The notes below the pieces were generated by a model. It was not told where the DNA came from. It made no database searches and saw nothing but the letters and a program-made list of their open reading frames with translations. Shown in pieces: positions 15,502 through 60,739 of a stretch of 64,000 nucleotides of DNA. The position numbers and the translations under genes are program-made. Origin of the DNA: Parachryseolinea silvisoli (GTDB lineage: Bacteria; Bacteroidota; Bacteroidia; Cytophagales; Cyclobacteriaceae); contig NZ_JAIOAO010000001.1 in the NCBI RefSeq assembly GCF_021190955.1, positions 1,488,001 through 1,552,000 of the forward strand, given 5' to 3'. How positions within the stretch are numbered: position 1 is the stretch's first letter; every line of letters starts with the position of its first letter.

Positions 15502-15544
15502 CTAAAGTAGGTTTGGAGAACGCTACTTCCTATGACCGCGGTCA
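15502..15544 (-). promoter_or_regulatory. FNR/CRP-like operator plus -7 box for flavodoxin gene
   Basis: TGAC-CGCG-GTCA (15533-15544) is a fully palindromic 12-mer. On the minus strand it is followed after exactly 23 nt by TACTTTAG (15509-15502), five of six matches to TAnnTTTG. The operator centre is then near -41.5. The site lies in the divergent region with the Usp gene at 15647; a weaker copy, TGAG-CGAA-ATCA, is at 15571-15582 and may serve that gene. Confidence 0.75.
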
Positions 15545-15646
15545 GAGAGAACTATGACGCTTGTTCGCCGTGAGCGAAATCATCACCTGTCCCGAGCACC
15601 ATCATATCAAACCAGGCCTCCAGTCACGAAATTGTTCAAAAAGCAT

Positions 15647-16465
15647 ATGAAAAATATTCTCGTCCCCTGCGATTTCTCAAAGCCCGCCGAAGATGCGTTC
15701 CGGTTTGCCATCGACATAGCAAAACAGAGTGGCGGTGAAGTGCACGTGTTGTATGTAATTGATATGACATTCTTAAACGGACATCCTACCCTTTCAAACG
15801 CCTATGCCTTCAACGTGAACTTTCTGAAAGACATCGAGCGAGAATCCGATGAAAAATTTCGCGTGATTTGGTCACGCTATGCACCTTTTACAATGAAAGT
15901 AGGTTTCCGGCATGTGATCAGCTCCCTGGTTCCGGAAGTCGATAAATACATTAAAGAATACAATATCGACCTCGTCATCATGGGCACGCACGGCAAAGGC
16001 AACGCCATAGTAGGATCGAATGCCGACAAAGTGGTTCGACGCTCTCCGGTTCCCGTTTTTTCGATTCGATCCTATCCTAAACAAATCCAAAAGATCATAC
16101 TTCCGGTAATGCAGGTCAAACCGGACGGCAAGTTTGTCGATGTGGTAAAGAACCTACAAGAATTCTTTGACGCGCACTTGTATATCGTCTCTATCAACAC
16201 GCCGCTATACTTCAGAAATGATCCAGAGGCCATGCGGGACCTGGAAAAGTTCGCCAGTGGTGTGTTTTCGAATTATACGCTGCATATACGATCCGACTAC
16301 ACGGTAGAGACAGGAATAGCAAATTTCACAACGGAAATAGAAGCGGACCTGATTGCCATGGGTACACATGGTTGGAAGGGCCTTCTACACCTTGTTGTCG
16401 GCAGCGTGGCGGAAGACCTTATAAATCTCCTCAAAACACCGGTATGGACGCTTCACGTGAAATAA
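15647..16465 (+). CDS. tandem-domain universal stress protein
   Basis: The 272-residue protein contains two Usp folds. The first starts MKNILVPCDFSKPAEDAF and has the nucleotide-loop pattern IMGTHGKGNAIVGSNADKV; the second ends IAMGTHGWKGLLHLVVGSVA. I start at 15647, where the canonical Usp N-terminus begins; an upstream in-frame start would add 31 unrelated residues. It is one of four intact tandem Usps in the window (others at 33595, 40123, 61007). By family it has a role in survival under energy or oxygen limitation. Confidence 0.9.
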   Translation: MKNILVPCDFSKPAEDAFRFAIDIAKQSGGEVHVLYVIDMTFLNGHPTLSNAYAFNVNFLKDIERESDEKFRVIWSRYAPFTMKVGFRHVISSLVPEVDKYIKEYNIDLVIMGTHGKGNAIVGSNADKVVRRSPVPVFSIRSYPKQIQKIILPVMQVKPDGKFVDVVKNLQEFFDAHLYIVSINTPLYFRNDPEAMRDLEKFASGVFSNYTLHIRSDYTVETGIANFTTEIEADLIAMGTHGWKGLLHLVVGSVAEDLINLLKTPVWTLHVK

Positions 16466-16470
16466 GTTAC

Positions 16471-16482
16471 TGATACGGATCA
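16471..16482 (+). promoter_or_regulatory. FNR/CRP-like operator upstream of mla-type operon
   Basis: TGAT-ACGG-ATCA matches the island consensus without mismatch and lies 70 bp before the permease ATG. A -7-like TACATTTT follows after 27 nt rather than 23, so activation geometry is less certain here. Confidence 0.55.
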
Positions 16483-16552
16483 CTCCAACGCTTGACAAAC
16501 ATCAGCCTTTACATTTTCAATAGCCGTCATCTTTGGCATACAACATCAGCAT

Positions 16553-17323
16553 ATGGCACAGGATAGAACATATACTAAATTCCTGAACGAACTAGGCGAT
16601 ACAACGCGTTTTACGCTTCGATTCTTTCGTGAGCTTTTTAAACGCAACCAGGAGCTGGAAGAGTTTTTCCGCCAATGCTACTGGATCGGGTATAAATCGT
16701 TGCCGTTGGTAGGTATCACCGCGCTTATCATGGGCCTGGTACTGACTATTCAGTCGCGCCCAACGCTGGTCGAATTTGGCGCGCAGTCCCTATTGCCTGC
16801 GATGGTATCCGTCTCGTTAGTGCGCGAAATCTCACCGGTAATCACGGCCCTGATTTGTGCGGGCAAGATCGGTTCTGGTATTGGAGCAGAGCTTGGTTCC
16901 ATGCGCGTTACCGAGCAGATCGACGCCATGGATGTCTCTGGCACAAATCCTTTCAAATACCTTGTCGTGACCCGTGTGCTCGCGACGACCATCATGCTAC
17001 CGGTACTATCAAACCTTTCGAACGCCATCGGGTTGTATGGTGCCTACCTGGGCGTGAATATCCGGGGGACTGTCAGTTGGCATTTGTATTGGACACAGGT
17101 TTTCAATGCCCTGAGTTTCGGGGATGTCATCCCGTCGCTGATCAAAACATTCTTCTTCGGTTTTGCGATCGGTATCATCGGCTGTTATAAGGGATATCAT
17201 TCGAGCAAAGGCACCGAAGGAGTCGGTCGATCTGCTAATTCCGCCGTGGTGGTGGCCTCCTTGCTGGTATTTATCATCGACCTTATTGCCGTGCAGGTGA
17301 CGGATTTACTTGGGCTAACCTGA
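16553..17323 (+). CDS. MlaE-type ABC transporter permease
   Basis: The 256-residue protein is an MlaE/YrbE-family permease of a lipid-transport ABC system. It shows the amphipathic N-terminal interfacial helix (ELFKRNQELEEFFRQCYWIG), the conserved segment LVREISPVITALICAGKIGSGIGAELGSM, with EQIDAMDVSGTNP after it, and four to five membrane helices. It is first of a three-gene set with ATPase (4-bp gap) and MCE protein (3-bp gap). It probably moves phospholipids between the inner and outer membranes. No mlaB or mlaC gene is visible nearby. Confidence 0.88.
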   Translation: MAQDRTYTKFLNELGDTTRFTLRFFRELFKRNQELEEFFRQCYWIGYKSLPLVGITALIMGLVLTIQSRPTLVEFGAQSLLPAMVSVSLVREISPVITALICAGKIGSGIGAELGSMRVTEQIDAMDVSGTNPFKYLVVTRVLATTIMLPVLSNLSNAIGLYGAYLGVNIRGTVSWHLYWTQVFNALSFGDVIPSLIKTFFFGFAIGIIGCYKGYHSSKGTEGVGRSANSAVVVASLLVFIIDLIAVQVTDLLGLT

Positions 17324-17327: not shown

Positions 17328-18065
17328 ATGAAAAACGGGCCGGTCATCGATGTGCACAACGTGCATAAGTCTTTTGGAGAAAACCATGTACTCCGGGATT
17401 TCTCCATGACGCTTGCACCAGGAGAAAACTTAGCGATCCTGGGTAAATCGGGATCTGGAAAATCTGTGCTCATTAAATGTATCGTCAGACTTATTCCTTT
17501 CGACCATGGCACCATCGAGGTGTTGGGTGAAGATGTCAATGTCCTCGACCTGGATGCACTCGATGTGCTGCGCGCGCGTGTTGGGTTTCTTTTTCAAAGC
17601 AATGCATTGTATGATTCGATGACCGTACGGGAAAACCTCGAGTTCTCACTGCGGCGCCACTGGAACGCTGACCAACGCAAAAAAGGTGCGGAGGCGGTGG
17701 TATTGGAGGCCCTGACTGATGTGGGCCTGCCGCATACGGTGAACATGATGCCTGTTGAACTCTCGGGCGGTATGCGCAAACGCATCGCACTGGCGCGCAC
17801 GCTCATCCTCCGTCCATCCATTATCTTATACGACGAGCCTACAACCGGACTTGATCCCATTACCTCACGGGAGATCAGTCACCTGATCGTCAACGTGCAG
17901 CAAAAGTATAACACTGCGTCGGTGATTATCTCGCACGACATCAATTGTATCAACATTACTTCCAACCGGGTGGTTATACTCATCGACGGCACCGGCTATG
18001 CGAACGACACGTACGCAAATCTCAGGAATTCCAATGATCCCAGGATAAAAGATTTTTTTGATTAA
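17328..18065 (+). CDS. MlaF-type ABC transporter ATP-binding protein
   Basis: The 245-residue ATPase has a Walker A motif (LGKSGSGKSVLIK), Q-loop region (LFQSNALYDSMTV), signature LSGGMRKRIALARTL, Walker B with catalytic Glu (IILYDEPTTGLDP) and H-loop (IISHDI). The sequence pattern after the Q-loop (NALYDSMTVRENLEF) is typical of MlaF. It powers the permease encoded immediately upstream. Co-transcribed with the permease and MCE genes. Confidence 0.92.
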   Translation: MKNGPVIDVHNVHKSFGENHVLRDFSMTLAPGENLAILGKSGSGKSVLIKCIVRLIPFDHGTIEVLGEDVNVLDLDALDVLRARVGFLFQSNALYDSMTVRENLEFSLRRHWNADQRKKGAEAVVLEALTDVGLPHTVNMMPVELSGGMRKRIALARTLILRPSIILYDEPTTGLDPITSREISHLIVNVQQKYNTASVIISHDINCINITSNRVVILIDGTGYANDTYANLRNSNDPRIKDFFD

Positions 18066-18068
18066 ACT

Positions 18069-19070
18069 ATGAGAAATAAAACACTTGATAATACAAAAGT
18101 TGGAACGCTGGTTATGGCCGGTCTGGTATTCCTGGTGTTTACCCTGTACATGATCGGAAGAAACCGAAATTTATTCGGCGCCACGTTCACCATTAACGCT
18201 GTGTTAACCAATGTCAATGGACTCGTGCCCGGAAACAATGTTAGGTTCAAAGGAATTAACGTCGGAACGGTCAGCAGCATTCGGCTAAACAGCGACACGG
18301 GCATTGTAGTAATACTGAATATTGACCAGGCGATGAAGCCCTATATTAAAGAAAACGTGATGGCGTCGGTCGGCACGGACGGTCTAATGGGCGACAAGCT
18401 CATTAACCTGAACCCAATTGCCGGGCCCGCCGGACCGATCGAAGAAAACGACACCATCTCTTCGTTGACGCCGGTTGAGACCGAAGAAATGCTTCGTACG
18501 TTAAACGCAACCAATAATAACGTTGTGCGAATATCGGCCGACCTGTATGAGATCACGACACGGCTCAAAACGAGCGAAACACTATGGAGTTTGCTCTCCG
18601 ACAGCGTACTCGCGCAAAATCTGAAAGGCGCCGTCGGCGACTTTAAAACCGCAGGGGCAAACACGGCCCAAATGACGCAGACTGCCAAAAATATCGTCGA
18701 GGAACTACACGCCGGTCGGGGGATCTCATACCGACTGTTCGCCGACACCAGCCTGTCCAACAAGCTTGATAATTCGCTGCGTCAGATCCAGCAAGCAAGC
18801 CTGGAGACATCGGCGATGATGGCAAACCTCCATCAGATCGTGGGGGGGCTAAAGCAGGGCGACGGCGCCGCAGGACTCGTCCTGGCGGACACACTGGCCC
18901 GCCAGAGCCTGCTGCACAGCTTGCAGAGCATCGAGCAGGGCGCAGGGCGCTTCAACGAAAACATGGAGGCGTTAAAATCCAACTTCCTTTTTCGAGGCTA
19001 TTTCCGGAGGCAGCAAAAAAAACACCGAGACATCAAAGACACATCCGGCGTGGCGCAACGCAATCCCTAA
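18069..19070 (+). CDS. MlaD-like MCE-domain substrate-binding protein
   Basis: The 333-residue protein has one N-terminal membrane anchor (about residues 14-33) and a single MCE domain (about 38-125) with VLTNVNGLVPGNNVRFKGI and the MASVGTDGLMGDKLINL strand pair. A long helical C-terminal region follows (about 140-310). This is the periplasmic lipid-binding ring component of an Mla-type transporter and completes the E-F-D gene set. The lack of a second MCE domain and the helical tail fit MlaD-like proteins of Bacteroidota. Confidence 0.88.
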   Translation: MRNKTLDNTKVGTLVMAGLVFLVFTLYMIGRNRNLFGATFTINAVLTNVNGLVPGNNVRFKGINVGTVSSIRLNSDTGIVVILNIDQAMKPYIKENVMASVGTDGLMGDKLINLNPIAGPAGPIEENDTISSLTPVETEEMLRTLNATNNNVVRISADLYEITTRLKTSETLWSLLSDSVLAQNLKGAVGDFKTAGANTAQMTQTAKNIVEELHAGRGISYRLFADTSLSNKLDNSLRQIQQASLETSAMMANLHQIVGGLKQGDGAAGLVLADTLARQSLLHSLQSIEQGAGRFNENMEALKSNFLFRGYFRRQQKKHRDIKDTSGVAQRNP

Positions 19071-23770: not shown

Positions 23771-24049
23771 AGCGATATGCGTTAAATGTGATGCTAAAGT
23801 ATAGCGGATGACTAACAACGTATCTGACGGACGTCGGCTACTGTAATGATTTTCAACACTAGTGTCCACTGACAATAATCAGGGCAGGCTGTATTTTTTC
23901 CCTTCAACGGGCTACTTATGCCACAATATGCGACAAACTACAGGCTGGGCAGATGGATACGTACGGCATCCCTGCAGCAGCCGGCATTTTGAGGACACCC
24001 GATCAACAAGCAGAAAGGCCGGCCGGTGCCGGTTTACTATATAGAATAA

Positions 24050-29015: not shown

Positions 29016-30006
29016 TCCCCTTTACGGTGGTGCCGCTTTCCTCTTCCGCGCGTTTGTGACTGGATAGATCCATGATAGCCGTCAGCAGACAATTGCGATC
29101 GTATAAAGGAACCATGTGCGCATGGATGGATATATAAATCGGCTCACGTCCACGCGGTTGTATGTATACCTCAGTATGTCGTATAGAACGCTCCTCCCTG
29201 CCACAATATCCCTACGTTGCTCGGCATTACGGAAAATACCAAGATCTGCCGCGGTCTTGCGTATGAGCTCCTCGATGCTGTAATTTACAGCGGATGCAAA
29301 GACACTATTGCAATTTAAAATCTTGCCCGTTTCGAATTCACTGATCACAATGGCAATGGGACTTTCATAAAATACTTTCTCAAACAAAGACGTTGCTTCG
29401 TCTGAGCTTCTCTTGTACGCGCACCCGTTTGTTGAAATTATACCAGATCGCAAAGAAAGTTGACACGAGTAGGGCTCCAATGCAAATAAACAACAGTATA
29501 AGGGTACTTCGAAAAGAAGCCGCCCATTTTTCGCTGTCATAATCTTGTCTTCCTAAAAGAACTTCCTCGGTGTTTTTGATCCTCTCGATACGATGTGACA
29601 CGGCATCCCGCAAATTTTCTTTGTTGTTGGATCCCATCAGGACGGAATCAACGTTGATCCAATCCCGTATCACCCGTTCCAGCGAATCGATGCTCGCCTG
29701 TTGCTCAATGTTATCCCGCGTAAAATCTTTTAGATCGTTCAATCGCGTAAACAAGATTCGCTCCGCCTGATCATCACCTTTATATTGGCCATGCTGCGGT
29801 TCTGCCCGGCCGTGTTTCAGTAGCTGGACATCTTTATACGCGGCCGAAATTGCATCAACTTTTCCTATTACGCGGTGGGTGTGGTCAACCCAATCTACAG
29901 CCTCCCGGATTTCCAGGTTGTCCCGGTAACACACGGATCCAAGAATAGCAATGGCAGTAATCAACGATATAAATAACAAGCCTAAAACGGCTTTGAAAGA
30001 AATCAT
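28996..30006 (-). pseudogene. CHASE3-like/PAS sensor protein, two frameshifts and no output domain
   Basis: The first frame (30006 to about 29405) encodes a membrane segment, a CHASE3-like helical sensor with a second membrane segment (STLILLFICIGALLVSTFFA), and a HAMP-like end RVQEKLRRS. A shift near 29400-29406 leads to a PAS domain: LFEKVFYESPIAIVISEFETG, NYSIEELI. A second shift, one G missing in the C-run 29194-29196, leads to IRHTEVYIQP, YISIHAHMVPLYD and LLTAIMDLSSHKRAEEE, then a stop at 28998. No kinase domain follows, so I consider the gene inactive unless it only senses. Confidence 0.65.
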
Positions 30007-30089: not shown

Positions 30090-31340
30090 TTAGCGGGGCT
30101 CCGCCGCAACGGCTACGGCAGATTTTTCTATTGACGGCCATAGCCCACGTCTCTTACCCCGGAGACGGAACTCCAGGTCAGCGAGCACATTCATATAATT
30201 CATGAACGCTTCATATGGCGACCTGTATGGGCTGAAGTATTGATGAACACCACCGTCCGGGCCGCCTTTTGTTGACATGTAATAAAAATGATCACTTGTC
30301 TGTAAGTGTCGATAGTCTTTAGTCAAGGCCATGTCGTCCTTTTCCATAACCAAATCCTGAAACCTATACAGTGTTTCGAAGGCGTCGCGTTGCATGTCAT
30401 TGCCTAACCAGGCCGACAGGTCGCGGGCCTGGTCTGCCCACGATGACGCCCCGACACACTGTACCACCGGCCCGGCGGGCATCAAATCACACAAAGCCGA
30501 GGGAGTAGCAAACATGAACCGGCCAGATCGTTGCAGCGCTAAAATAAATTCCTGCAGGAATGTAAAAATACCCGAACTGTGCTTCTGATGCTCACCGAAC
30601 GTCTCATAGTCCAGCGCCAAACAAACCAGCTTTTCATGTGCCGGAAGACGATCGATCCAAGATGCAAACTTTTTGCCGGTGAGCGGCCATTCGGCCCAGG
30701 CTTCGTCAGCGTAACGAAACGCGATATCATCGCTCATCCGATGATTTCTTGGAATAAGCGCAAACGACGCCTCCGGGTGCGTGTACAATCCATTCGGCGT
30801 TCTTCCTTGAAGGAAAGCGGGCGCACCTTCGACATACATTCCGGAAAAACCAAGTTCCGATACCAGCTTTCCGATTGCGTCGGAATAGATCAGTTCGGTA
30901 TGGCGAAAAAACGTGGGATCAAAACCGATTACATCCCGGAGTAATTGTTTATGTAGACCGACCTGATGAATAAACTCCTCCTGGCTCTTAAAATAGGCTA
31001 GTGAATGATAATAGGTTTCTCCGAGGAATTCTACCGCCCCGGTATCGGCCAGTTGCCGAAAGCTCAGCAATACCTCCGGTGCATACAGCGCAAACTGCTC
31101 CAACGCTGTACCGGATATGGAGAACGTAACGCGGATATCAGGGTGCCTGGCAATGAGGTTCAACAGCAAAGTGTTTGCAGGCAGGTAACAATCTTTCGCC
31201 ACCTGGCAGACAATGTCCCGGTTGAGATCATCATCAAAATACCTCTGCCCGGAACCTACGTCAAAAAACTGGAATTTCTGCAGTCGACGCGGTTGATGCA
31301 CCTGAAAATACAAATTAAGATAGCGTTGATCCGAGTTCAT
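30090..31340 (-). CDS. glycoside hydrolase family 57 (alpha-amylase-type) enzyme
   Basis: The 416-residue protein shows GH57 conserved regions: YFQVHQPRRL near the N-terminus, VEFLGETYYHSLAYF, FFRHTELIYSD (nucleophile Glu region) and CLALDYETFGEHQ (catalytic Asp region). It is cytoplasmic and probably acts on glycogen or maltodextrin. It overlaps the end of the glycosyltransferase gene by 26 bp; this GT4-GH57 pairing is common in glycogen-type metabolism. Transcription probably starts at the operator upstream of DUF2892 (32275). Confidence 0.85.
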   Translation of the reverse strand: MNSDQRYLNLYFQVHQPRRLQKFQFFDVGSGQRYFDDDLNRDIVCQVAKDCYLPANTLLLNLIARHPDIRVTFSISGTALEQFALYAPEVLLSFRQLADTGAVEFLGETYYHSLAYFKSQEEFIHQVGLHKQLLRDVIGFDPTFFRHTELIYSDAIGKLVSELGFSGMYVEGAPAFLQGRTPNGLYTHPEASFALIPRNHRMSDDIAFRYADEAWAEWPLTGKKFASWIDRLPAHEKLVCLALDYETFGEHQKHSSGIFTFLQEFILALQRSGRFMFATPSALCDLMPAGPVVQCVGASSWADQARDLSAWLGNDMQRDAFETLYRFQDLVMEKDDMALTKDYRHLQTSDHFYYMSTKGGPDGGVHQYFSPYRSPYEAFMNYMNVLADLEFRLRGKRRGLWPSIEKSAVAVAAEPR

Positions 31341-32001
31341 GATAGAGCTGGTTTATGGACGTTGCTGCACGTTTCCAGATGAGTGATTTAGTTTCCCGCT
31401 TGCTGTTGCCGCGTGATGCGTTCGTCAGCACATTGTGCCTAAAAAGATTAATGATCGCATCCGGCAACGCATCGATATCCCCAATTACGGGCACGCCTGC
31501 CTGAACCGCGTCCAGTGGCGTGATGCCAAAGGGGTCTGACACTGACGGCATCACATATACCTGGGTAACGGACAACACCTGACGCATTTGTTCTGCTTTG
31601 AGGAGGCCCGTGAAATGCATCCGGGACGATATCTTCCGATACGCTGCACGCTCCATCATCTGCGGCAGCAGGTCACCTGACCCGGCAACAATAAAGTGTG
31701 CATCAGGAAAACACACCGTGTTTTCACCGATGCTGTATGGCTTTATTTCCGCGGGAACAGCAGTGATCTTTACCGCCGGATTCCACCTTTCTTCGGTGAC
31801 CCGTGCCGTGTTTTGAGATGCATCAACCACAACGACCGAAGCATTGATCAATGGGATCGACTCATCACCTCGTGCTTGAGGCACGACAAAAAGAAGTTCA
31901 ACCCGCTGGTCTTTCAAGGCTGTCGCCAGGCATAAACACGCCGTACCAAGTCCACCGGATATATGTGATGGAAACTCCCATCCGAACATCAAACCTCCCA
32001 T
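31315..32001 (-). CDS. GT4-type glycosyltransferase with two internal in-frame deletions
   Basis: The open frame encodes only 228 residues. The start MFGWEFPSHISGGLGTACL and strand ELLFVVPQARGD fit glycogen-synthase-like GT4 enzymes. Near residue 90 the chain jumps from the N-terminal domain to AHFIVAGSGDLLPQM, losing about 180-200 residues including the acceptor cleft and start of the donor domain. Near residue 174 PVI runs directly into DIDALPDAI, losing about 20 more. The donor-site EX7E motif is DPFGITPLD, so both Glu are Asp. The protein is probably inactive although the frame stays open. Confidence 0.7.
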   Translation of the reverse strand: MGGLMFGWEFPSHISGGLGTACLCLATALKDQRVELLFVVPQARGDESIPLINASVVVVDASQNTARVTEERWNPAVKITAVPAEIKPYSIGENTVCFPDAHFIVAGSGDLLPQMMERAAYRKISSRMHFTGLLKAEQMRQVLSVTQVYVMPSVSDPFGITPLDAVQAGVPVIGDIDALPDAIINLFRHNVLTNASRGNSKRETKSLIWKRAATSINQLYHELGSTLS

Positions 32002-32243: not shown

Positions 32244-32286
32244 CAAAGGAATACCGCAGCAGCCTAAGAAGCAGTGACGAACGTCA
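32244..32286 (-). promoter_or_regulatory. FNR/CRP-like operator plus -7 box for DUF2892-GT4-GH57 operon
   Basis: TGAC-GAAC-GTCA (32275-32286) is followed on the minus strand, after exactly 23 nt, by TTCCTTTG (32251-32244), five of six matches to TAnnTTTG. The ATG is 21 nt further. Confidence 0.75.
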
Positions 32287-32326: not shown

Positions 32327-33388
32327 TTAGATGTGAACTAACTTTTCCAATTTTGCTTTGTTAATGACTTTCAGTCCGTCACCCGAGATTTCGATAAGTC
32401 CTTCATCTTTAAAGTCTGCCAACGTGCGATTCAGCGATTCCGTCGCCGTTCCCACAATGTTCGAAATATCTTTTCGGGCGATTGTAATCAGGCCGTCCTT
32501 TCGATCGCAGGCAAATCGCTCGCCCATCTTTAGCAGCGCATTTGCCACGCGTTGTCGAACAGACTGATACGCGATATCCAGCAACCGCTCCTCGATTTCC
32601 TCCAGATTGTTGGATAGCATTTTAATAAACTTCCGGGCGACATCCTTGCTTGAATAGATTAGGGTGATGAAGTCCATTTTCGGGATGATCGTCACACGAG
32701 CATCTTCGATCACTTCGGCGCTCTCGCTATAAATTTTATCCTCCAGAAGCGGCACAAATCCAAAGAAGTCGCCCTCCTTAAGAATGCCCGTGATCAATTC
32801 TTTTCCGTCGTAGTTCACCTTGTAGGTTTTCACCTGTCCTTTTTCGATAAAGTATAGATCGTTGGGCGTCTGCCCTTCCATAAAAATCAGGTCCTTCCGT
32901 TTGAAAGACCTTACGGGTCTGTTCTCGGACAGTTTCTGGAAATCCCTCAGCTCACGCGTTTTGCTGAAAAATGCGCTAACTTCGGAAGAATTGTTACCGA
33001 AGGCTGTTTTCATCAACTCGCTTTTCTTGAGCCGCATCTCAATAACCTTCAACAAATCTACGCCATCAAAAGGTTTGGTGATGTAGTCGTCTGCACCCAG
33101 ATTCATACCTGCCCGAAAATCACTCTTGTCGGCTTTTGCCGTCAGAAAAATAAACGGTATACTGGCTGTCTCAACATCTTTGTTCAGGATATGCAACACG
33201 CCGTATCCGTCAAGTTCCGGCATCATAATGTCGCACAGAATCAGGTCCGGCTGTAGCCGCTGGGCAAGGTCGACACCAATCTTGCCGTCTGCCGCGTGAG
33301 TAACGTCGTACTTCGCCAGCTGTAAAATGCATGAAATGTTCTCGGCCATTTCCGCATTGTCTTCAATCAAAAGAATTTTGTAATGCAT
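32327..33388 (-). CDS. receiver domain fused to Crp/Fnr-family regulator
   Basis: The 353-residue protein joins a receiver domain (residues 1-120; acidic pocket IEDN, phospho-acceptor Asp53 in LCDIMMPELDG, Thr switch FLTAK, Lys in YITKPF) to a cyclic-nucleotide-binding-like roll (about 150-265) and a Crp-type winged helix (about 275-345). The roll lacks the PRSA cAMP motif. The recognition helix ISNIVGTATESLNRTLADF aligns with the FNR helix ETISR, keeping Glu and Arg that contact TGA. It is therefore the best candidate reader of the TGAY-N4-RTCA sites. Phosphorylation, not a ligand, may control it; the PAS kinase at 38710 is a possible partner (inference). Confidence 0.85.
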   Translation of the reverse strand: MHYKILLIEDNAEMAENISCILQLAKYDVTHAADGKIGVDLAQRLQPDLILCDIMMPELDGYGVLHILNKDVETASIPFIFLTAKADKSDFRAGMNLGADDYITKPFDGVDLLKVIEMRLKKSELMKTAFGNNSSEVSAFFSKTRELRDFQKLSENRPVRSFKRKDLIFMEGQTPNDLYFIEKGQVKTYKVNYDGKELITGILKEGDFFGFVPLLEDKIYSESAEVIEDARVTIIPKMDFITLIYSSKDVARKFIKMLSNNLEEIEERLLDIAYQSVRQRVANALLKMGERFACDRKDGLITIARKDISNIVGTATESLNRTLADFKDEGLIEISGDGLKVINKAKLEKLVHI

Positions 33389-33486
33389 AGGAGGATAAGG
33401 TTTGGGACATTCGTGACCAACAATAGACTACACTAAAGTACTCCGGAATGCCCCGGATGACCCTGAGCCAAGTCATATAAGAAGAG

Positions 33487-33525
33487 TGACTTTTCTCAGG
33501 ATTCGGTCCTTGATGATGCAAATCA
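33487..33525 (+). promoter_or_regulatory. operator pair between REC-Crp gene and Usp gene
   Basis: TGAT-GCAA-ATCA (33514-33525) is a perfect site 69 bp before the Usp ATG at 33595. TGAC-TTTT-CTCA (33487-33498, one mismatch) lies 27 bp upstream of it. Neither has a clear TAnnTTTG box at 23 nt. The location in the divergent region of the regulator gene allows autoregulation. Confidence 0.5.
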
Positions 33526-33594
33526 TTTATTGCGTAAATGCGTGTCATCCCATTCAAATCGGGCAGCCGATAACTTGGTACAAACAATATTCGC

Positions 33595-34995: not shown

Positions 34996-35038
34996 CAAAA
35001 GTACCCGTGGCCAGAAGGTAGCACGATGACAACCATCA
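34996..35038 (-). promoter_or_regulatory. FNR/CRP-like operator plus perfect -7 box for Hsp20 gene
   Basis: TGAC-AACC-ATCA (35027-35038) lies exactly 23 nt before the minus-strand octamer TACTTTTG (35003-34996), a perfect TAnnTTTG. The Hsp20 ATG is 24 nt further. Confidence 0.8.
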
Positions 35039-35080
35039 GCAATTCGCTGGATTCTCGTCGCCGGGACCAGCGGGCGAACG

Positions 35081-35541: not shown

Positions 35542-35567
35542 TAGAGGATAGAAGTCATGTGCCTTCA

Positions 35568-35611
35568 TGACCTTGCTCATCGAAATTGACACGGCATGAA
35601 GGTTACTTTAT
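35568..35611 (+). promoter_or_regulatory. operator (one mismatch) plus -7-like box for acetyl-CoA hydrolase gene
   Basis: TGAC-CTTG-CTCA (35568-35579) is identical to the minus-strand site of the Usp gene at 41040-41029. After 23-24 nt follows TTACTTTAT, which contains a TAnnTTTG-like octamer (four of six). The ATG is at 35624. Confidence 0.55.
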
Positions 35612-38709: not shown

Positions 38710-39951
38710 TTATCCTTGTGGTATACTGAAGTAAAATGTACTTCCTTTACCATACGTGCTTGTAAACGACACCTCACCAGAAATCAAATCCACATACCGT
38801 TTAACAATATGTAGCCCCAAGCCTGTTCCCTGGATGTTCCCAGCATTGCTCGCACGAAAAAAGCGATCAAATAGATGTTTCTGGTCATCCGCTGGTATTC
38901 CTATTCCCTCGTCGGTTACATAAAAAAACACGCGGCTGTTTTTACTCTCTGCCGAGACATGAACCTGCTTGCCGGCATCAGAGTATTTGCTGGCATTCGA
39001 AATCAGGTTATACAAGATGTTCCGTAGAGTACGGGTATCGGTCCAGATCTCATCCAGGTCCGGCGGGCAAGCGGTCGTGACGGTTTGACCGTCCTTCAAA
39101 AAAGACTGAACTTCTTCTTTGATCTCATCCAGGAACGACTGTAGGATAATGGGATCAGACTGGATTTCCACCTTCCCCTCTTCCAATTTGCCTAGCGATA
39201 AGAAGTCATTCAGAATTTGTGTGAGTTGATTAACCGATGACTTCACACGATTAATGTGTTTATCCTGCTTATCATACTCTTGCCGATCTTTGTATTGCTT
39301 GATCAGTGACACAGAACTCATGACAGTACTAAGCGGCGTACGGAATTCATGTGATGCGATGGATACGAATTTAGATTTCAATTCATTGAGTTCGCGTTCG
39401 CGCTCGAAGGAACGCCGGACCTCTTCCTCCGCCTTCTTTCGCTCACTAACCTCTTGTTCCAGCTTCACGATGGTCTGATTCAACGCATCCGTGCGCAACT
39501 CCACTTTCTTCTCGAGTTCCGCGGCATACACTATTAATTGCTCCTCGCTCTTACGGAGTGCGTCCTCCACTAACTTGCGTTGCGAAATATCGCTGATGAA
39601 CGCCATGACCAGGATATCTCCCTGCACTTGCGTATAACTCAAGCTGATTTCTACCGGAAACTCAGTTCCGTCGCGACGTAATGCCATTAGGTCGCGGCCG
39701 AAGCCCATACGCCGCGGATGGGGATCGCCGTTAAATGCTTGCCGAAACTTAACATGCCCCTTTCTGTACCGCTCGGGCAACAGTGACTCCAGGGTCACGC
39801 CCGTCAACTCGCCCCGGCCAAACCCAAAGAGCTGCTCCGCTACCGGGTTAGCAAGCGCGATCTCACCAGATTCATTTACCATGATAATGCCCTCAGACAT
39901 ACTCTGAAATATTTCCCGGTAAGCCTCGCTAGTCACAAGTGAAAAATCCAT
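38710..39951 (-). CDS. PAS-domain soluble sensor histidine kinase
   Basis: The 413-residue protein has a PAS domain (about residues 8-125: IIMVNESGEIALANPVAEQLFGF, LRRDGTEFPVEISLS, FISDISQRK), a coiled coil (130-190), a HisKA domain with His201 (ASHEFRTPLSTVMSS) and an HATPase domain (NLISNASKYSDAGK, DEGIGIP, GTGLGLHIV). No membrane segment, so it senses a cytoplasmic signal such as redox or energy state. No response-regulator gene is adjacent; the REC-Crp protein (32327) or the single receiver (48770) could be the target (inference). Confidence 0.88.
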   Translation of the reverse strand: MDFSLVTSEAYREIFQSMSEGIIMVNESGEIALANPVAEQLFGFGRGELTGVTLESLLPERYRKGHVKFRQAFNGDPHPRRMGFGRDLMALRRDGTEFPVEISLSYTQVQGDILVMAFISDISQRKLVEDALRKSEEQLIVYAAELEKKVELRTDALNQTIVKLEQEVSERKKAEEEVRRSFERERELNELKSKFVSIASHEFRTPLSTVMSSVSLIKQYKDRQEYDKQDKHINRVKSSVNQLTQILNDFLSLGKLEEGKVEIQSDPIILQSFLDEIKEEVQSFLKDGQTVTTACPPDLDEIWTDTRTLRNILYNLISNASKYSDAGKQVHVSAESKNSRVFFYVTDEGIGIPADDQKHLFDRFFRASNAGNIQGTGLGLHIVKRYVDLISGEVSFTSTYGKGSTFYFSIPQG

Positions 39952-40974: not shown

Positions 40975-40997
40975 AAACATAATGTTTGTTGGCAATT

Positions 40998-41040
40998 CGA
41001 ATGTACCGCGTCATACCCTGGGTTCGATTGAGCAAGGTCA
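40998..41040 (-). promoter_or_regulatory. operator plus -7 box for Usp gene at 40974
   Basis: On the minus strand TGAC-CTTG-CTCA (41040-41029, one mismatch to consensus) is followed after exactly 23 nt by TACATTCG (41005-40998; five of six matches). The identical 12-mer occurs before the acetyl-CoA hydrolase gene at 35568. Confidence 0.65.
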
Positions 41041-41050
41041 TTGAACGACG

Positions 41051-41093
41051 TGATTCTTATCATCCGCCGAGCGGCGGGCAAAGGTGACCTTTA
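41051..41093 (+). promoter_or_regulatory. FNR/CRP-like operator plus -7-like box for MBL nuclease gene
   Basis: TGAT-TCTT-ATCA (41051-41062), 23 nt, then GACCTTTA (41086-41093; four of six matches). The ATG is at 41097, so the transcript would be nearly leaderless if this box is used. Confidence 0.55.
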
Positions 41094-42538: not shown

Positions 42539-42550
42539 TGATAATCATCA
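42539..42550 (+). promoter_or_regulatory. FNR/CRP-like operator of the DUF302-baeRF operon
   Basis: TGAT-AATC-ATCA is a perfect site 63 bp before the DUF302 ATG. No -7 box lies at 23 nt; a TATCTTTA octamer (five of six) lies 47 nt downstream at 42598-42605, which would give an upstream (class I-like) position. Confidence 0.5.
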
Positions 42551-42613
42551 CCGCTCAACACTGACGTTTGCCCTTCACAAAGCCACGTCGACAGCACTAT
42601 CTTTATAAAAAAA

Positions 42614-44378: not shown

Positions 44379-44633
44379 TCACTCGGTGAATTGCTTCTCA
44401 CGCATCGGGCTGTCGTTATGTGCCAACGCATTTTTCACCTGGGCCGTCACCGCAGTGCAGAGGTCCGAAAACTTCTCATCGATTGTGTCATTCAGCGCGT
44501 CAGCAAGGTCTCCACCTTTCCGAATGATCCTTTTACGGGTATACCGTCCCTCATCGGGTGCAAACAATACGCCCAGCACAGCGCCCGCAGCGACGCCCGC
44601 AAGCACCGCTAAAATTGCCTTTTCCTTTTTCAT
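44379..44633 (-). CDS. YtxH-domain stress membrane protein
   Basis: The 84-residue protein starts with a hydrophobic Gly/Ala-rich helix (AILAVLAGVAAGAVLGVLFAP) followed by the YtxH pattern DEGRYTRKRIIRKG and a helical tail. It is anchored in the inner membrane. Such proteins are general-stress-induced. Its promoter has a perfect operator and -7 box. Confidence 0.8.
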   Translation of the reverse strand: MKKEKAILAVLAGVAAGAVLGVLFAPDEGRYTRKRIIRKGGDLADALNDTIDEKFSDLCTAVTAQVKNALAHNDSPMREKQFTE

Positions 44634-44668
44634 CTTTGTCGGGTTATCAATAAATACTCCTTATGTTA

Positions 44669-44711
44669 CAAATCTACCGGGAGTCCTTCGCCGCGCAAAT
44701 GACCCGGATCA
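44669..44711 (-). promoter_or_regulatory. FNR/CRP-like operator plus perfect -7 box for YtxH gene
   Basis: On the minus strand the site at 44711-44700 (TGAT-CCGG-GTCA) is followed after exactly 23 nt by TAGATTTG (44676-44669), a perfect TAnnTTTG. The YtxH ATG is 35 nt further. Confidence 0.8.
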
Positions 44712-44768
44712 TCAACCAGCTGTGATCCTTATCGAGCATTTGAAAGCGACTAAAATCCGGCCACACCA

Positions 44769-44811
44769 CGATCAATATCATCGTGCGCCCCATCAGTATA
44801 GGGTATTTTAG
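44769..44811 (+). promoter_or_regulatory. operator (one mismatch) plus -7 box for BON operon
   Basis: CGAT-CAAT-ATCA (44769-44780), exactly 23 nt, then TATTTTAG (44804-44811; five of six matches). The site is embedded in a longer inverted repeat, CACGAT...ATCGTG. Divergent from the YtxH promoter. Confidence 0.65.
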
Positions 44812-44861: not shown

Positions 44862-45536
44862 ATGAAAACGAATGAACAACTTCGGACAGATGTTATGGAT
44901 GAGATCAAATGGGACCCTCAGTTGACAAATATCGCCACCGAGATTGGCGTGGCATCGAAAGATGGTGTTATTACATTGACGGGGGAAGTCGACAGCTACT
45001 GGAAAAAGCGCGCTGCCGAAGATGCCGCGAAGCGCGTAGCGGGCGTCAAAGTCGTGGCGAGCGACATCGAAGTTAAACTTAGCAACTGGGGTAAACACAG
45101 TGACAGTGAAGTGGCGGATGCTATTCGCAATGCTTTACGCTGGAACAGTGCGATCAATGAAGACCAAATTGAAATAATGGTCGACAACGGTTGGGTCACA
45201 CTCGACGGCGCGGTCGATTATGCGTTCCAGAAACGATATGCACAATCTTACATCGAAGATCTGGTGGGAGTAGCCGGCGTGACAAACAACATTACGATCA
45301 AACATCAACCCATCGATACAAAAGATATTCAGCGTAAGATCACCGCAGCTTACCACAGGAGTGCGAATATTGACGCACACACGATACACGTGCAAACGTC
45401 CGGCAGCAAGGTAACCCTGACTGGTAGCGTGCGGTCGTGGGCAGAAAAAAAAGAAGCCGAAACGGTCGCATGGTCTGCCCCGGGCGTACTCACCGTGGAC
45501 AACAAAATAGAAATCGACCTGCCCGTGTATGCCTAA
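44862..45536 (+). CDS. triple BON-domain protein
   Basis: The 224-residue protein has three BON domains at about residues 5-70, 80-145 and 150-220. Each carries the pattern V-x-L-x-G-x-V followed by A-x-x-V-x-G-V: [13 protein letters not shown] with [23 protein letters not shown] with [10 protein letters not shown], and [13 protein letters not shown] with [10 protein letters not shown]. There is no signal peptide, so it may be cytoplasmic, which is unusual for OsmY-like proteins. It heads the BON-DUF4136-PNPOx operon. Confidence 0.88.
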
Positions 45537-47305: not shown

Positions 47306-48493
47306 TCATTCGTGCCGATGCGCGAACATGGGCTGGCCGGGTAATACCTGCAGCTGCTCCATCTCGTGTATCCATCTATCAAGATATTCCAGGATGGTGG
47401 CCAGACCCGCGTTTACGCCATGCTCAACATACGCGCCGGACGCTGCCATTCCGAGGAGCATGCACTGTTCCAGTGGGAGTCCGCCCAGTAGTCCAAAACA
47501 ATATCCAGCATTCAGGTTATCTCCACCACCCGTCAAAACCGTTGGATTAGCTACATAATGCCCGGATAATTCTATAACTTGGTCTTGATGGTAAACTATA
47601 CTCCGATCGGCGGGGTGCACTAGCAAGGTATCAACCTTCATCGACTGGTATACATCTTTACCGGCTTCTAACACGGGCGGAAGCTTCGCCCGATCCTTCA
47701 CGAAATCCATCCCGCGTAGCGCCGCCCAAATTCTTAGGGTTTCATTCTCATTCAATCCCACAGTGACCCGGCCATACGACGAGAAGCAGCTCATGATATC
47801 CAGTACTTCGTCGATTTGTTGTGTTGTCTTTTTGGAGGGATCGGAAAGATCAAAGAGAAACAAAAAGTCTTTGCGCTTCAGGGGCTTAATAACATCATCC
47901 AACACACCTTGCCAGATGTCGCTGGCATGCGGCAGGTTCGCCCAGTCCACGAAGGCAATAAGTGAACTATCTGTGACTGCTTTTACAATACGATCCAGAC
48001 CGGCATGATCTTTAATGTAGGACCAGGTATACCCGTCAAACACTTCCAGTTCTGAAAAAATCAATTTGCCATCGGAAAACTCGATGGCATCACTGATGCC
48101 AGGGTCCAACACGCTGATCACCTCACACAAAGGAGTCATTATTGAAAATAATTCGTGTTGTTGTGGATAGCCCATGGCTCCCAGGCAGTAGCTTTTCACG
48201 CCCAACTGCCCCAGTTCCTGCGCCAGTATTGGGGCATTGCCGCCGATTTTAATACGTTGCGTATCCATCTGCACCTGACCACTCTTTCCGCATGCCATCA
48301 ACAGCCGGTCTGTAAAGTCGCGAATCGTTTCAAAATACTCTGTTCGTGTATTCTGTCGCTCCTTTACGGCCTTCTTAATCTTGTCGATAAATCCATCGAA
48401 TCCAACAAATACTTTTCTCTCCAGCGGGTACAGCAATTGTAATCTGATCTGCTGCTGCAGGTCTCTCAGGGACAATACATCCGTGTTTGTCAT
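47306..48493 (-). CDS. PfkB-family carbohydrate kinase
   Basis: The 395-residue protein is a ribokinase/PfkB-type kinase: VFVGFDGFIDKIK near the start, IKIGGNAPILAQELGQLGVKSYCLGAMG and the phosphate-transfer signature VLTGGGDNLNAGYCFG, in which GGGD stands for the usual GAGD. It is longer than typical PfkB by an N-terminal helix. Substrate unknown. A perfect hairpin lies 40 bp upstream, separating it from the operator at 48651, so its promoter is unclear. Confidence 0.82.
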   Translation of the reverse strand: MTNTDVLSLRDLQQQIRLQLLYPLERKVFVGFDGFIDKIKKAVKERQNTRTEYFETIRDFTDRLLMACGKSGQVQMDTQRIKIGGNAPILAQELGQLGVKSYCLGAMGYPQQHELFSIMTPLCEVISVLDPGISDAIEFSDGKLIFSELEVFDGYTWSYIKDHAGLDRIVKAVTDSSLIAFVDWANLPHASDIWQGVLDDVIKPLKRKDFLFLFDLSDPSKKTTQQIDEVLDIMSCFSSYGRVTVGLNENETLRIWAALRGMDFVKDRAKLPPVLEAGKDVYQSMKVDTLLVHPADRSIVYHQDQVIELSGHYVANPTVLTGGGDNLNAGYCFGLLGGLPLEQCMLLGMAASGAYVEHGVNAGLATILEYLDRWIHEMEQLQVLPGQPMFAHRHE

Positions 48494-48619: not shown

Positions 48620-48662
48620 TAAAAGTAAAACGAACCTCATGATACGACGATGACTGCCATCA
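48620..48662 (-). promoter_or_regulatory. FNR/CRP-like operator plus -7 box without an obvious gene
   Basis: TGAC-TGCC-ATCA (48651-48662) is followed on the minus strand, after exactly 23 nt, by TACTTTTA (48627-48620; five of six matches). No protein gene follows before the terminator at 48557-48533. Confidence 0.65.
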
Positions 48663-48769
48663 GCAAGATCCAGGATTGTCATCGTTTGCGTGTTAGATGA
48701 GCGCTCAGCGATCGCACAGTGGGACACGTGATGTGATAATAAGAAAGGATTGTAAGTAACACGATGCGT

Positions 48770-51409: not shown

Positions 51410-51584
51410 TTTGCGGGTGATCTTGCGCCAGAAATATCCGCAGTTTTTCTTTTTTACCTTATGATGCCCGTCAGGATGACAAGTGACTTCCATCAGAAGC
51501 ATAGGAAATATCAAAGGGCGGCCGTGACTGCACTCCGGATCATCGTTCAGGCAATATATCGTCATGCAATGGCCGCGCAGATTG

Positions 51585-56234: not shown

Positions 56235-56299
56235 TGACTATGATCAATGTGTAAGCTGACCAATATCATTCATGCCCGGCACAGAACGTTGCACTTTCG
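56235..56299 (+). promoter_or_regulatory. double FNR/CRP-like operator plus -7-like box for OsmC gene
   Basis: Two perfect sites, TGAC-TATG-ATCA (56235-56246) and TGAC-CAAT-ATCA (56257-56268), have a 22-bp centre distance, about two helical turns. The proximal one is exactly 23 nt before CACTTTCG (56292-56299; four of six matches). This layout would place sites near -41.5 and -63.5. Confidence 0.65.
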
Positions 56300-58263: not shown

Positions 58264-58274
58264 ATTGTTGTTTG

Positions 58275-60659
58275 TTAGATAGTAAGCAATTCTTTTTCTT
58301 CCGCCTGGTGAATGTTCTGTATGCCACGAATCAGCGCGTCCGGATTAAAGGAAACTGAGTCGATACCCAGCGATACCAGGAAACGGGCAAACGCAGGGTA
58401 ATCACTGGGCGCCTGTCCGCACAGCCCGACTTTGACACCGTTATCGTGCGCTGTCTCCACCAGACTGGCGATCAACATTTTTACCGCCTCATTATTTTCA
58501 TCGAACAGGTCACTGACAATCGCTGAGTCGCGGTCCAGGCCTAGCGTAAGCTGCGTCAGATCGTTCGAACCGATTGAGAATCCATCGAAGAGATGCGAAA
58601 ATTGCTTTGCCAGCAAAACGTTGCTTGGAATCTCAGCCATCATATATACCTCCAGTCCATGCTCATGGCGGGTGAGGCCGTGCCGTTGCATCACGACCAG
58701 TACTTGTTCGGCTTCCGCCAGCGTGCGACAAAAGGGTATCATAACCTTGACATTCGAAAGCATCATATCCTGCCGTACTTTCAGGATCGCCGCGCATTCC
58801 AGCCCAAAACCTTCAGTGTACCGTTCGTGATAGTACCGACTCGCGCCCCGAAAGCCTAACATCGGGTTTTCTTCTTCGGGCTCGAACATCTTTCCACCTA
58901 ACAACTTTGCGTATTCATTTGTTTTGAAATCACTCATACGCACGATCACGTCCCGGGGATAGAATGCCGCTGCCACCAGACCAATTGATTCGGCTAGCTT
59001 ATCCACGAAAAATTGCTTCCGGTCTGCATAATGACGGGTGAGCGCGGCGATCTGCTTTTTCTCAGCCCCTTCCGGCAACACATCATAGCGCACCAGCGCC
59101 ATGGGATGGATTTGCAACGTATTACTGATCATAAACTCCATGCGCAATAATCCAACACCCTGATTGGGGTACGATGCGTATAGCAATGCCTTTTCGGGAT
59201 CGGCCAGGATGAGCATGGGCTGCGTTTTTGTAGGCGGTAGCTGGTCGAGCTTCGTCTCCTTCTCTTCCCAAAGGAGCTTTCCGATATATACCTCCCCTAC
59301 GTCGCCATGGGCACAACATACGGTAATCTCCTGGCCATCTGCCAGAAACTCCGTGGCGGATGTTGTCCCGACGACCGCCGGAATACCGAGCTCCCGGGCG
59401 ATGATCGATGCATGGCTGGTCCTACCGCCCTTATTTGTCACGATACAAACCGCCTTCTTTAATAGCGCATTCCAATCCGGGTTGGTAATGTCTGCTACAA
59501 TGATATCGCCGGGTCGTACCTTATCTGAATCTACCAGCGAACGAACGAGGCAAACTCGTCCACTGACAATGGACCGTCCGACCGCCTTTCCCAGAAGTAT
59601 TGGTGTTTGCGTAGTCTTTAATTCATATTCCTTTACGGAGACTTTCCTGGCGCGGGCCAGTACTGTTTCCGGACGTGCCTGCACGATGTAGAGCTTGTTG
59701 GTCGTCCCATCTTTCGCCCATTCAATATCCATCGGCATTTTATAGTGCTTTTCGATCGCCATTGACCAACGTCCCAATACCGCAAGCTCATCATCAGAAA
59801 GAATATACTGATCGCGCTCGGCGGGGGTCGTGGTTTTCCATTCGATCGTTTTGTCGGGCATCTCCGAATATACCAGCTTCTGTTCCTTACTGCCCAGCAC
59901 CCGGTGTACGATCGCCATGCCATGACCTTCAAGCGCCGGCTTAAAGAGATAAAACTCATCCGTGTTGACAGCTCCCTGCACCACACTCTCGCCCAGACCC
60001 CACGCACCTGTTAGGTAGATCAGATTTTGGTTCCCGTTTTCAGGCTCGATCGTGAAGGCGACTCCCGCACTTCCCAGGTCTGAGCGGACCATATGCTGGA
60101 TGCCAACGGAGAGCAACACCTGGAAGTCCGAAAAACCATTGTCAATGCGATATTTGATCGCACGATCATTAAAAAGCGACTCATAGCATTTTTTCACCGC
60201 CACCAATACACTGTCAATACCTTGCACATGCAAATAAGACTCATGCTGCCCGGCAAAACTGGCGCTCGGCGAATCCTCGGCCGTGGCGCTGCTTCGTACA
60301 GCAACCGAATGAATAATATCGGACATCATCAGTGCCTGATATTCCTTGCGTATGGCCTCCTCTACGGCCAATGGCAATGAAGCCTTTCGAACAAGTGCCC
60401 GGCAAGCATCACCGACATCACATAAGTTTCCCAGTGACTCACGATCCAACGTCTTTAGCGTCGCACGCAGCGCCGGCTCCAAATCGTTGACAGTCAAAAA
60501 GGAGGTATAAGCGTCCACTGTTACAGCAAAGCCATTCGGCACCGCGACTCCCAAAGGCTTCAGTGCGGCCATCATCTCACCGAGTGAAGCATTTTTACCA
60601 CCTACAATGGCCACATCGGCCATCGCTACCTGATTGAGGGGTCGAATGAGCTGTTTCAT
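58275..60659 (-). CDS. ppsA: phosphoenolpyruvate synthase
   Basis: The 794-residue protein has the three PEP-synthase domains: an ATP-grasp domain (GGKNASLGEM, SVAVRSSATAEDSPSASFAGQHE), the swivelling phospho-His domain with His416 (TNKGGRTSHASIIARELG), and a C-terminal TIM barrel ending GLCGQAPSDYPAFARFLVSLGIDSVSFNPDA. It makes PEP from pyruvate and ATP. Length is normal. It heads a three-gene operon with a perfect operator/-7 arrangement, which suggests gluconeogenic rerouting during growth arrest. Confidence 0.93.
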   Translation of the reverse strand: MKQLIRPLNQVAMADVAIVGGKNASLGEMMAALKPLGVAVPNGFAVTVDAYTSFLTVNDLEPALRATLKTLDRESLGNLCDVGDACRALVRKASLPLAVEEAIRKEYQALMMSDIIHSVAVRSSATAEDSPSASFAGQHESYLHVQGIDSVLVAVKKCYESLFNDRAIKYRIDNGFSDFQVLLSVGIQHMVRSDLGSAGVAFTIEPENGNQNLIYLTGAWGLGESVVQGAVNTDEFYLFKPALEGHGMAIVHRVLGSKEQKLVYSEMPDKTIEWKTTTPAERDQYILSDDELAVLGRWSMAIEKHYKMPMDIEWAKDGTTNKLYIVQARPETVLARARKVSVKEYELKTTQTPILLGKAVGRSIVSGRVCLVRSLVDSDKVRPGDIIVADITNPDWNALLKKAVCIVTNKGGRTSHASIIARELGIPAVVGTTSATEFLADGQEITVCCAHGDVGEVYIGKLLWEEKETKLDQLPPTKTQPMLILADPEKALLYASYPNQGVGLLRMEFMISNTLQIHPMALVRYDVLPEGAEKKQIAALTRHYADRKQFFVDKLAESIGLVAAAFYPRDVIVRMSDFKTNEYAKLLGGKMFEPEEENPMLGFRGASRYYHERYTEGFGLECAAILKVRQDMMLSNVKVMIPFCRTLAEAEQVLVVMQRHGLTRHEHGLEVYMMAEIPSNVLLAKQFSHLFDGFSIGSNDLTQLTLGLDRDSAIVSDLFDENNEAVKMLIASLVETAHDNGVKVGLCGQAPSDYPAFARFLVSLGIDSVSFNPDALIRGIQNIHQAEEKELLTI

Positions 60660-60696
60660 GATTGGCTGCGTTTTTGGGGATTAACTGGCAGGTAAA

Positions 60697-60739
60697 CAAA
60701 CTTACGTGGTGGCAGCACCGCTATCGATGATGAACATCA
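60697..60739 (-). promoter_or_regulatory. FNR/CRP-like operator plus perfect -7 box for PEP-synthase operon
   Basis: On the minus strand the site at 60739-60728 (TGAT-GTTC-ATCA) is followed after exactly 23 nt by TAAGTTTG (60704-60697), a perfect TAnnTTTG. The ATG is 37 nt further. Confidence 0.8.

Follow-up and report, generated by a model that had tools for sequence, protein, structure and literature searches.

A tandem-box promoter linked to Crp-family response regulators in Bacteroidota and a candidate low-oxygen regulon

What reads the many copies of the palindrome TGAY-N4-RTCA that lie between genes in one stretch of the Parachryseolinea silvisoli genome? The stretch analysed, hereafter the window, comprises 64,000 nucleotides (nt) of NZ_JAIOAO010000001.1 (positions 1,488,001–1,552,000, forward strand). 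A preliminary description had proposed a single regulon of CRP/FNR-like boxes, each placed 23 nt before TAnnTTTG, the octamer that serves as the −7 box of the Bacteroidota primary sigma factor and lies close before start codons. We give a probability of about 0.7 to the reading that these boxes are the sites of a phosphorylation-controlled activator of the Crp family, driven by a PAS histidine kinase in response to low oxygen. The activator would be a response regulator encoded in the window, with a receiver domain fused to a Crp-type DNA-binding part (REC-Crp), together with its paralogues.

The box is clearly enriched in the window. TGAYNNNNRTCA occurs 24 times, compared with 4.46 ± 2.11 times over 100 shuffles (largest count 13); the whole genome holds 804 boxes in 7.95 Mb, or ~6.5 per 64 kb. 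All 15 perfect and four one-mismatch copies reported previously were recovered at the same starts, as were twelve octamers exactly 23 nt after a box (three matching at 6/6 positions, five at 5/6 and four at 4/6), but nine perfect copies had been overlooked (16493, 23870, 29073, 36510, 46669, 51462, 51484, 57649 and 62371). Among sequences of the form TGA-Nn-TCA with n from 0 to 13, n = 6 stands out with 52 copies in total and 19 in intergenic DNA, compared with at most 34 and 6 for any other n. Over 48 box/orientation pairs, octamers matching at 5/6 positions or better occur seven times at offset 23 and zero to three times at other offsets. With revised gene starts, intergenic DNA (11.2 kb) holds 21 of the 24 boxes and coding DNA (52.8 kb) the other 3, far from the equal density that the preliminary description had named as evidence against its proposal; between 15.5 and 61 kb the figures are 20 in 7.0 kb and 3 in 38.5 kb. 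The count of 21 leans on the promoter reading itself, because the revision shifts starts to behind promoters; with gene starts as first listed, 14 of the 24 boxes are clear of open reading frames (ORFs). Perfect copies are absent from the whole first 15.5 kb, as had been noted for the first part of the window, but not from 21–27 kb, for which the same had been claimed: the box at 23870 precedes a YceI gene for which 23770 is the better start.

Some boxes come in pairs. Three perfect pairs stand exactly 22 nt apart (16471/16493, 51462/51484 and 56235/56257), as do two pairs with one mismatch (41029/41051 and 62349/62371; for the latter, no octamer at 23 nt exceeds 3/6), and this spacing led us to search for a second box. 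The search covered the best 80 of 576 loci encoding a relative of the window REC-Crp (1.45 Mb), many of them closely related (15 Hymenobacteraceae in the regulator tree; loci L086 and L102 nearly identical). Octamers matching at 5/6 or better follow the 734 oriented boxes of these loci 108 times at offset 23, 80 times at offset 45 and 22 times at offset 46, compared with about six times at a typical offset, and the sequence logo of the offset-45 set contains a second box in between. Among 134 promoters anchored by a box and an octamer, a second box matching at 5/6 or better is found 22 nt upstream in 57 and 23 nt upstream in 16, compared with a mean of 1.0 at other spacings. The commoner unit in the relatives is a tandem: box, 22 (or 23) bp from start to start, box, 23 nt, TAnnTTTG. 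As a general model, the one-box unit described earlier gave way to this tandem; the one-box form suits the box at 32275 and three Flavobacteriaceae loci.

We scored the composite of two boxes and octamer, with a maximum of 18. At a score of 16 or more, the 80 loci contain 159 matches, 150 of them distinct since the 23- and 24-nt registers were scored separately and one promoter may count twice, compared with 1 in shuffled and 2 in reversed controls. The excess persists at a score of 15 (66 versus 11 and 8) and is small at 14 (110 versus 89 and 76). The window, scanned on both strands, has 17 matches of at least 15, representing 15 promoters, versus 0.43 per shuffle; at 14 it has three, versus ~1.7–2.1 by chance. 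The distal box prefers TGATAAAAATCA and the proximal box TGAY-N4-(A/G)TCAT; the information content of the position preceding TGA is 0.18 bits over 115 promoters. An ORF of at least 100 amino acids begins within 40 nt after 96 of the 159 tandem octamers, versus 289 of 1062 other perfect TAnnTTTG octamers in these loci. Judged by the octamer and its closeness to start codons, these are probably primary-sigma promoters of the Bacteroidota type. In two Flavobacteriaceae loci (L093 and L099), three palindromes are each flanked on both sides, at 23 nt, by a TAnnTTTG-like octamer, and one palindrome may serve two divergent promoters.

The whole-genome scan and the comparison with related genomes that had been suggested earlier gave a strong excess. 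The P. silvisoli genome contains 34 composites with up to three mismatches, versus 3 in the reversed control, and 12 of them lie in the window; with up to two mismatches the numbers are 19 versus 1, and the window, with 0.8% of the genome's length, holds seven of the 19. Together with 58 relatives, we counted 400 composites versus 20 in the control, and 50 of the 59 genomes have at least one, these counts being non-independent across related genomes. Thirty genomes with a full-length REC-Crp hold 284 (control 6), 20 with only a stand-alone Crp-family relative hold 110 (control 11), and nine with neither regulator hold 6 (control 3); up to 35 candidates were scored per genome in making these classes, so that a REC-Crp may be missed. 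Relative to the class with neither regulator, composite density is higher in the REC-Crp class (Mann–Whitney p = 1.9e-5) and in the stand-alone class (p = 0.006), kinship and genome size class being ignored. Because promoter counts follow the regulators in this way, the boxes are linked to the entire subfamily and not just to REC-Crp, and the idea of REC-Crp as sole reader was not upheld. Four of the 20 genomes with only the stand-alone relative (G039, G047, G050 and G058) have no promoters.

The REC-Crp of the window (32327..33388, minus strand, 353 amino acids) matches Response_reg (9.2e-26), cNMP_binding (PF00027, 8.7e-21) and HTH_Crp_2 (PF13545, 5.4e-14), as well as PF00325, in Pfam. With its cNMP fold, Crp-type helix-turn-helix and E..R recognition helix, it belongs to the Crp/Fnr superfamily; D53 of the receiver and E317 and R321 of the recognition helix are invariant in 82 of 82 aligned proteins. 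Of 105 NCBIfam models that matched, the 25 listed all fell well short of their cut-offs. Its own gene has a tandem promoter scoring 17/18 (33433..33498, minus strand), consisting of TGAGAAAAGTCA, 11 nt, TGACTTGGCTCA, 23 nt and TACTTTAG, with a 23-bp pair and the start codon 44 nt on. This promoter was missed earlier because its boxes read TGAG-N4-GTCA and TGAC-N4-CTCA. The DNA preceding REC-Crp could not be aligned base by base between the window and loci L042, L043 and L044, though each has a 17/18 tandem. The recognition helix and the promoter on its own gene make REC-Crp, as had been suggested, a plausible and indeed likely reader of the boxes.

Several better-known identities do not fit this protein. 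FNR-like sensing, which the preliminary description had implied, found no basis in REC-Crp: the protein does not have the four Fe-S cysteines of FNR, only C52 of the receiver is conserved (82/82), and one other alignment column holds 12 cysteines. In E. coli CRP the cAMP phosphate is held by R82; at the corresponding residue, 222, 63 of the 82 proteins have E and 11 have D, and we rejected cAMP-CRP as a model. FixJ was set aside since the output domain is a Crp helix-turn-helix, not of the LuxR type, and FixK since a receiver is fused, the FixK model of NCBIfam reaches 79 of 300 bits and the base before TGA is nearly free. Among solved structures, the Crp part is matched best by 2gau, which we take to be a Crp/Fnr-type protein of Porphyromonas gingivalis; unlike REC-Crp, it has no receiver domain.

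The earlier proposal of one regulon stands with an amendment: further regulators of the same subfamily in the genome carry the same promoters. On C13 of the P. silvisoli genome (locus L152), a second REC-Crp, 52% identical to that of the window and placed in a different group of the tree of 82 proteins, forms an operon with a PAS kinase (L152:6991-9404). This operon is divergent from a Usp gene over common boxes and adjoins the operon for the cbb3 oxidase. A stand-alone Crp-family gene (C7:490401-491120) lies in a region with divergent tandem promoters scoring 17 and 18 of 18 (L157:6142-7463); the recognition helix of its product keeps E and R with identical spacing, and the protein likewise matches 2gau best. 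The tandems of the three regulators score 17/18 (REC-Crp), 15/18 (second kinase/REC-Crp operon) and 17/18 (stand-alone Crp). The two further regulators probably overlap with REC-Crp in binding, and the assignment of one of the three to a given promoter is inferred. On the other side of the stand-alone gene, ~700 nt downstream, is a sigma-70-type gene. In total, 29 cNMP-domain matches occur across the genome; one belongs to a Crp-like protein in the window (2882-3469), which has only this domain in Pfam and no perfect box within 12 kb. The sole row of the regulator tree labelled outside Bacteroidota, L068 from a Thalassovita metagenome-assembled genome, branches among Bacteroidota rows and is perhaps a misbinned contig.

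Which signal could drive such a regulator? The window encodes a PAS-HisKA-HATPase histidine kinase of 413 amino acids (38710..39951, minus strand; domains by Pfam). Its FixL-like PAS domain matches FixL chains at ~1e-14 (2cmn, 9e-15) and DosP at ~1e-12 to 1e-11, with His66 and Arg86 at the aligned places of FixL haem binding. A kinase like it was found in 78 of the 80 loci; in 72 it lies on the same strand within 250 nt upstream of REC-Crp, and in 54 within 60 nt. The PAS domain of a Saprospiraceae kinase (L106) has the FixL haem PAS 1dp6 as its best solved-structure match (E = 1.8e-28). Of 78 kinases, 77 from the loci and one from the window, 17 carry the full FixL signature, H[DN]xYxxxY plus IIGIGR; among 51 aligned PAS domains, the window-type His is present in 47 and the Arg in 34. 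Haem and oxygen binding are therefore likely in part of the kinase family, and a fair guess for the window kinase.

The genes behind the promoter point the same way. Our list of downstream genes used a score threshold of 16 in the loci and of 15 in the window, left out L001–L041, and included L122–L151, loci chosen for a matching tandem and used for gene identity only. Two of the 201 promoter matches lack an ORF downstream; the others give 199 genes, of which 15 belong to the window, with a choice of start codon biased to near starts. They include 43 members of a Usp cluster, 12 of a HemA cluster, 10 ccoNO genes, 10 kinase genes that match the window kinase best (for example in L057, where REC-Crp begins shortly after the end of the kinase gene), 7 REC-Crp, 7 Hsp20, 7 CBS-domain, 4 HemN, 4 metal ATPase and 3 CcoG genes. 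Many others form no cluster with any other gene and have no evident tie to low oxygen. One member of each cluster was scanned; HemA, HemN, CcoG and CcoN/CcoO scored above the NCBIfam cut-off, and CcoI is read from context because the heavy-metal P-type ATPase falls below its subfamily cut-off. C13 contains a Usp gene, the kinase/REC-Crp operon, ccoNO-ccoP-ccoG, the ATPase gene and hemN, with tandems before Usp, the kinase/REC-Crp operon, ccoNO (L152:13166-15310; tandem 15347-15411, 16/18) and the ATPase gene (18/18), just downstream of which lies hemN (L152:15607-16977). In L102, hemN (17375-18748) has its own tandem (16/18). Elsewhere in the genome, tandem-bearing genes include a ribosome hibernation factor-like gene on C9 and two Usp genes on C8. 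With the genes for the cbb3 oxidase and hemN under the box, the set appears to have the content of a low-oxygen regulon of the FNR/FixK type. Oxygen limitation, suggested earlier as the condition under which to map transcripts, is thus a likely signal, since ccoNO, ccoG, hemN and Usp share the promoter and the partner kinase is FixL-like.

We propose the following mechanism. As oxygen falls, the PAS histidine kinase, clearly FixL-like by haem signature in Saprospiraceae and FixL-related in P. silvisoli, would phosphorylate the receiver domain. Two dimers of the regulator would then bind the two TGA-N6-TCA boxes, two helical turns apart on the same DNA face. If the −7 element is taken as centred near −7, the centre of the proximal box falls at about −41 and that of the distal box at about −63, which supports the class II-like position of CRP/FNR-type boxes proposed in the preliminary description for promoters with a Bacteroidota −7 element. 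The activated regulator would turn on its own gene and the kinase operon, along with genes for the cbb3 oxidase and haem in other parts of the genome and those for stress and energy saving in the window island. Positive feedback on the regulator and kinase genes is suggested by their own tandem promoters.

Such a circuit probably works like the rhizobial FixL-FixJ-FixK cascade with FixJ and FixK merged. Shared with that cascade are a PAS kinase with, in part of the family, the haem signature, a receiver protein, a Crp/Fnr-type activator without conserved Fe-S cysteines, autoregulation, the TGAY-N4-RTCA core, and ccoNO, ccoG and hemN as targets. It differs in uniting the roles of FixJ and FixK in one protein, with the receiver fused to the Crp helix-turn-helix, in having mostly two boxes per promoter, in its TAnnTTTG core promoter and in its occurrence in Bacteroidota; no nitrogenase gene was found among the target proteins scanned. 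The FixK box is TTGAY-N4-RTCAA, and FNR-type boxes have the ends TTGAT...ATCAA; neither the outer TT/AA bases of the former nor the ends of the latter are conserved in the tandem boxes. Proteobacterial FNR, ANR and FnrL share the box core and the class II-like position, but not the receiver domain and kinase, which here take the place of Fe-S cysteines. The mycobacterial DosR regulon is likewise driven by a kinase at low oxygen and comprises Usp, Hsp20 and metabolic genes, though DosR is a LuxR-type regulator with unrelated boxes. The targets come close to those of an alphaproteobacterial FNR regulon, whose members include a P-type ATPase, glutamyl-tRNA reductase (hemA), cytochrome oxidase, UspA and the oxygen-independent coproporphyrinogen oxidase (hemN) (PMC2908626).

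A number of observations weigh against our reading. On the side of the regulator, the best Crp-side NCBIfam model for REC-Crp is the FixK model at its low score, the stand-alone protein matches FixK2 (4i2o) only at 5.9e-5, and REC-Crp is not the only reader, because the 20 genomes with only a stand-alone relative together hold 110 promoters. As to the promoter, 61 of the 134 anchored promoters have no second box at 22 or 23 nt (taking the two counts as separate), three Flavobacteriaceae loci (L093, L099 and L121) have single boxes, and several window promoters score just 14–15 of 18. In only 35 of 78 loci does the kinase match extend into the PAS region, and only the 17 kinases mentioned carry the full haem signature. 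The PAS domain of the window kinase matches 10jx (2.9e-18) better than FixL; the kinase gene is not adjacent to the regulator gene in the window, L043 and L044, and no window-like kinase was found in L042.

How do other explanations fare against these data? It is a serious possibility, somewhat short of even odds, that the main reader is the stand-alone Crp or the second REC-Crp, the window REC-Crp being minor or specialised. The stand-alone protein would account for the promoters of genomes without REC-Crp (110 versus 11), its gene has the two divergent tandems, and its recognition helix keeps E and R; genomes with REC-Crp are nonetheless denser in composites (1.58 versus 1.15 per Mb, kinship ignored), and the window cluster surrounds REC-Crp, whose gene keeps its 17/18 tandem in the window, L042, L043 and L044. 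The regulon and binding could also be as we propose and the signal another one, such as redox state, nitric oxide, light or energy starvation. The general stress character of the window genes (Usp, Hsp20, OsmC, DUF302 and BON) and the 61 of 78 kinases without the strict FixL signature would suit this, but ccoNO, ccoG, hemN and hemA under the same promoter and the FixL match of the L106 partner kinase make it unlikely.

Repression, with the proximal box covering the −33 region, is less probable still. The proximal box overlaps the expected −33 element, and position alone does not discriminate; activator promoters of CRP and FNR, however, typically have a fixed register and two-turn spacing, as found here with 23 nt and two boxes, and the same promoter on the regulator genes is more easily read as positive feedback. 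Chance or base composition, finally, has next to no probability in the face of the shuffled, reversed and spacing controls. Returning to the phosphorylation-controlled activator, we tentatively extend it, at nearly even odds, to a circuit on the scale of the phylum, in which a FixL-type kinase acts on a merged FixJ-FixK protein that binds as a pair of dimers to a two-box promoter, reduced in Flavobacteriaceae to one palindrome able to serve two divergent promoters. Searches of an open-licence library turned up no title or abstract on the motif, on REC-Crp or on FixL in Bacteroidota. If the extension holds, much of the Bacteroidota would share a low-oxygen circuit with its own promoter grammar, strict enough to read the low-oxygen regulon of many genomes from sequence alone. 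It would offer a defined kinase/regulator pair, an example of a cascade contracted from three proteins to two, and a suggested role in low-oxygen survival for poorly known promoter-bearing genes such as the DUF302 gene at 42614.

Within the window, the promoters form an island of ~15.5–60.8 kb, so delimited because the 13 kb beyond the window (L158) have no composite match of at least 15. Next to REC-Crp, a plus-strand tandem (33514..33578, 15/18, distal box perfect, proximal 4/6) precedes a Usp gene (33595-34440). Beyond it lie the tandems of an Hsp20 gene (34516-34971; 34996..35060, minus strand, 16/18, octamer 6/6) and of an acetyl-CoA hydrolase/transferase gene (35624-36907; 35546..35610, plus strand, 15/18). 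A second Usp gene (40123-40980; 40998..41062, minus strand, 17/18) and a beta-CASP metallo-hydrolase gene (41097-42494; 41029..41093, plus strand, 16/18) are divergent and use one box pair (40998-41093), each box being proximal for one gene. The DUF302 gene (42614-43054) has a plus-strand tandem with a 23-bp pair and a 24-nt spacer (42539..42605, 15/18).

On the other side of REC-Crp, the box at 32275-32286 has no second box at 22 nt and, with the octamer TTCCTTTG, reads as a single-box promoter (32244..32286, minus strand) for a glycosyltransferase gene (31315-32001) and a GH57 gene (30090-31340). The plus-strand box at 35081 also has no second box, and is doubtful as a promoter. In the Pfam scan, a CHASE3 sensor domain gene (29380-30006) shows neither a kinase domain nor another output domain. 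The YceI gene has a minus-strand tandem (23794..23858, 15/18) with an overlapping second register (23815-23881). The mlaE gene (16553-17323, assigned by Pfam), followed by mlaF and mlaD, has a plus-strand tandem (16471..16535, 17/18), and a flavodoxin-like gene (14939-15478) has one on the minus strand (15502..15566, 15/18) with the start codon 23 nt past the octamer.

Towards the far end of the island are minus-strand tandems of a ketohexokinase-like gene (47306-48493; 48620..48684, 15/18, start codon 126 nt past the octamer), of a YkuD L,D-transpeptidase gene with its start revised to 51409 (51431..51495, 16/18) and of a pyruvate phosphate dikinase-type gene (58275-60659; 60697..60761, 17/18, octamer 6/6). 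The OsmC gene, its start revised to 56304, has a plus-strand tandem (56235..56299, 16/18), and a weaker one (44747..44811, plus strand, 14/18) precedes a BON-domain gene (44862-45536). A minus-strand tandem with a 23-bp pair (44669..44734, 17/18) points to a small YtxH-like gene (44379-44633, assigned by Pfam); a plus-strand ORF that overlaps this promoter (44254-44811) is probably spurious.

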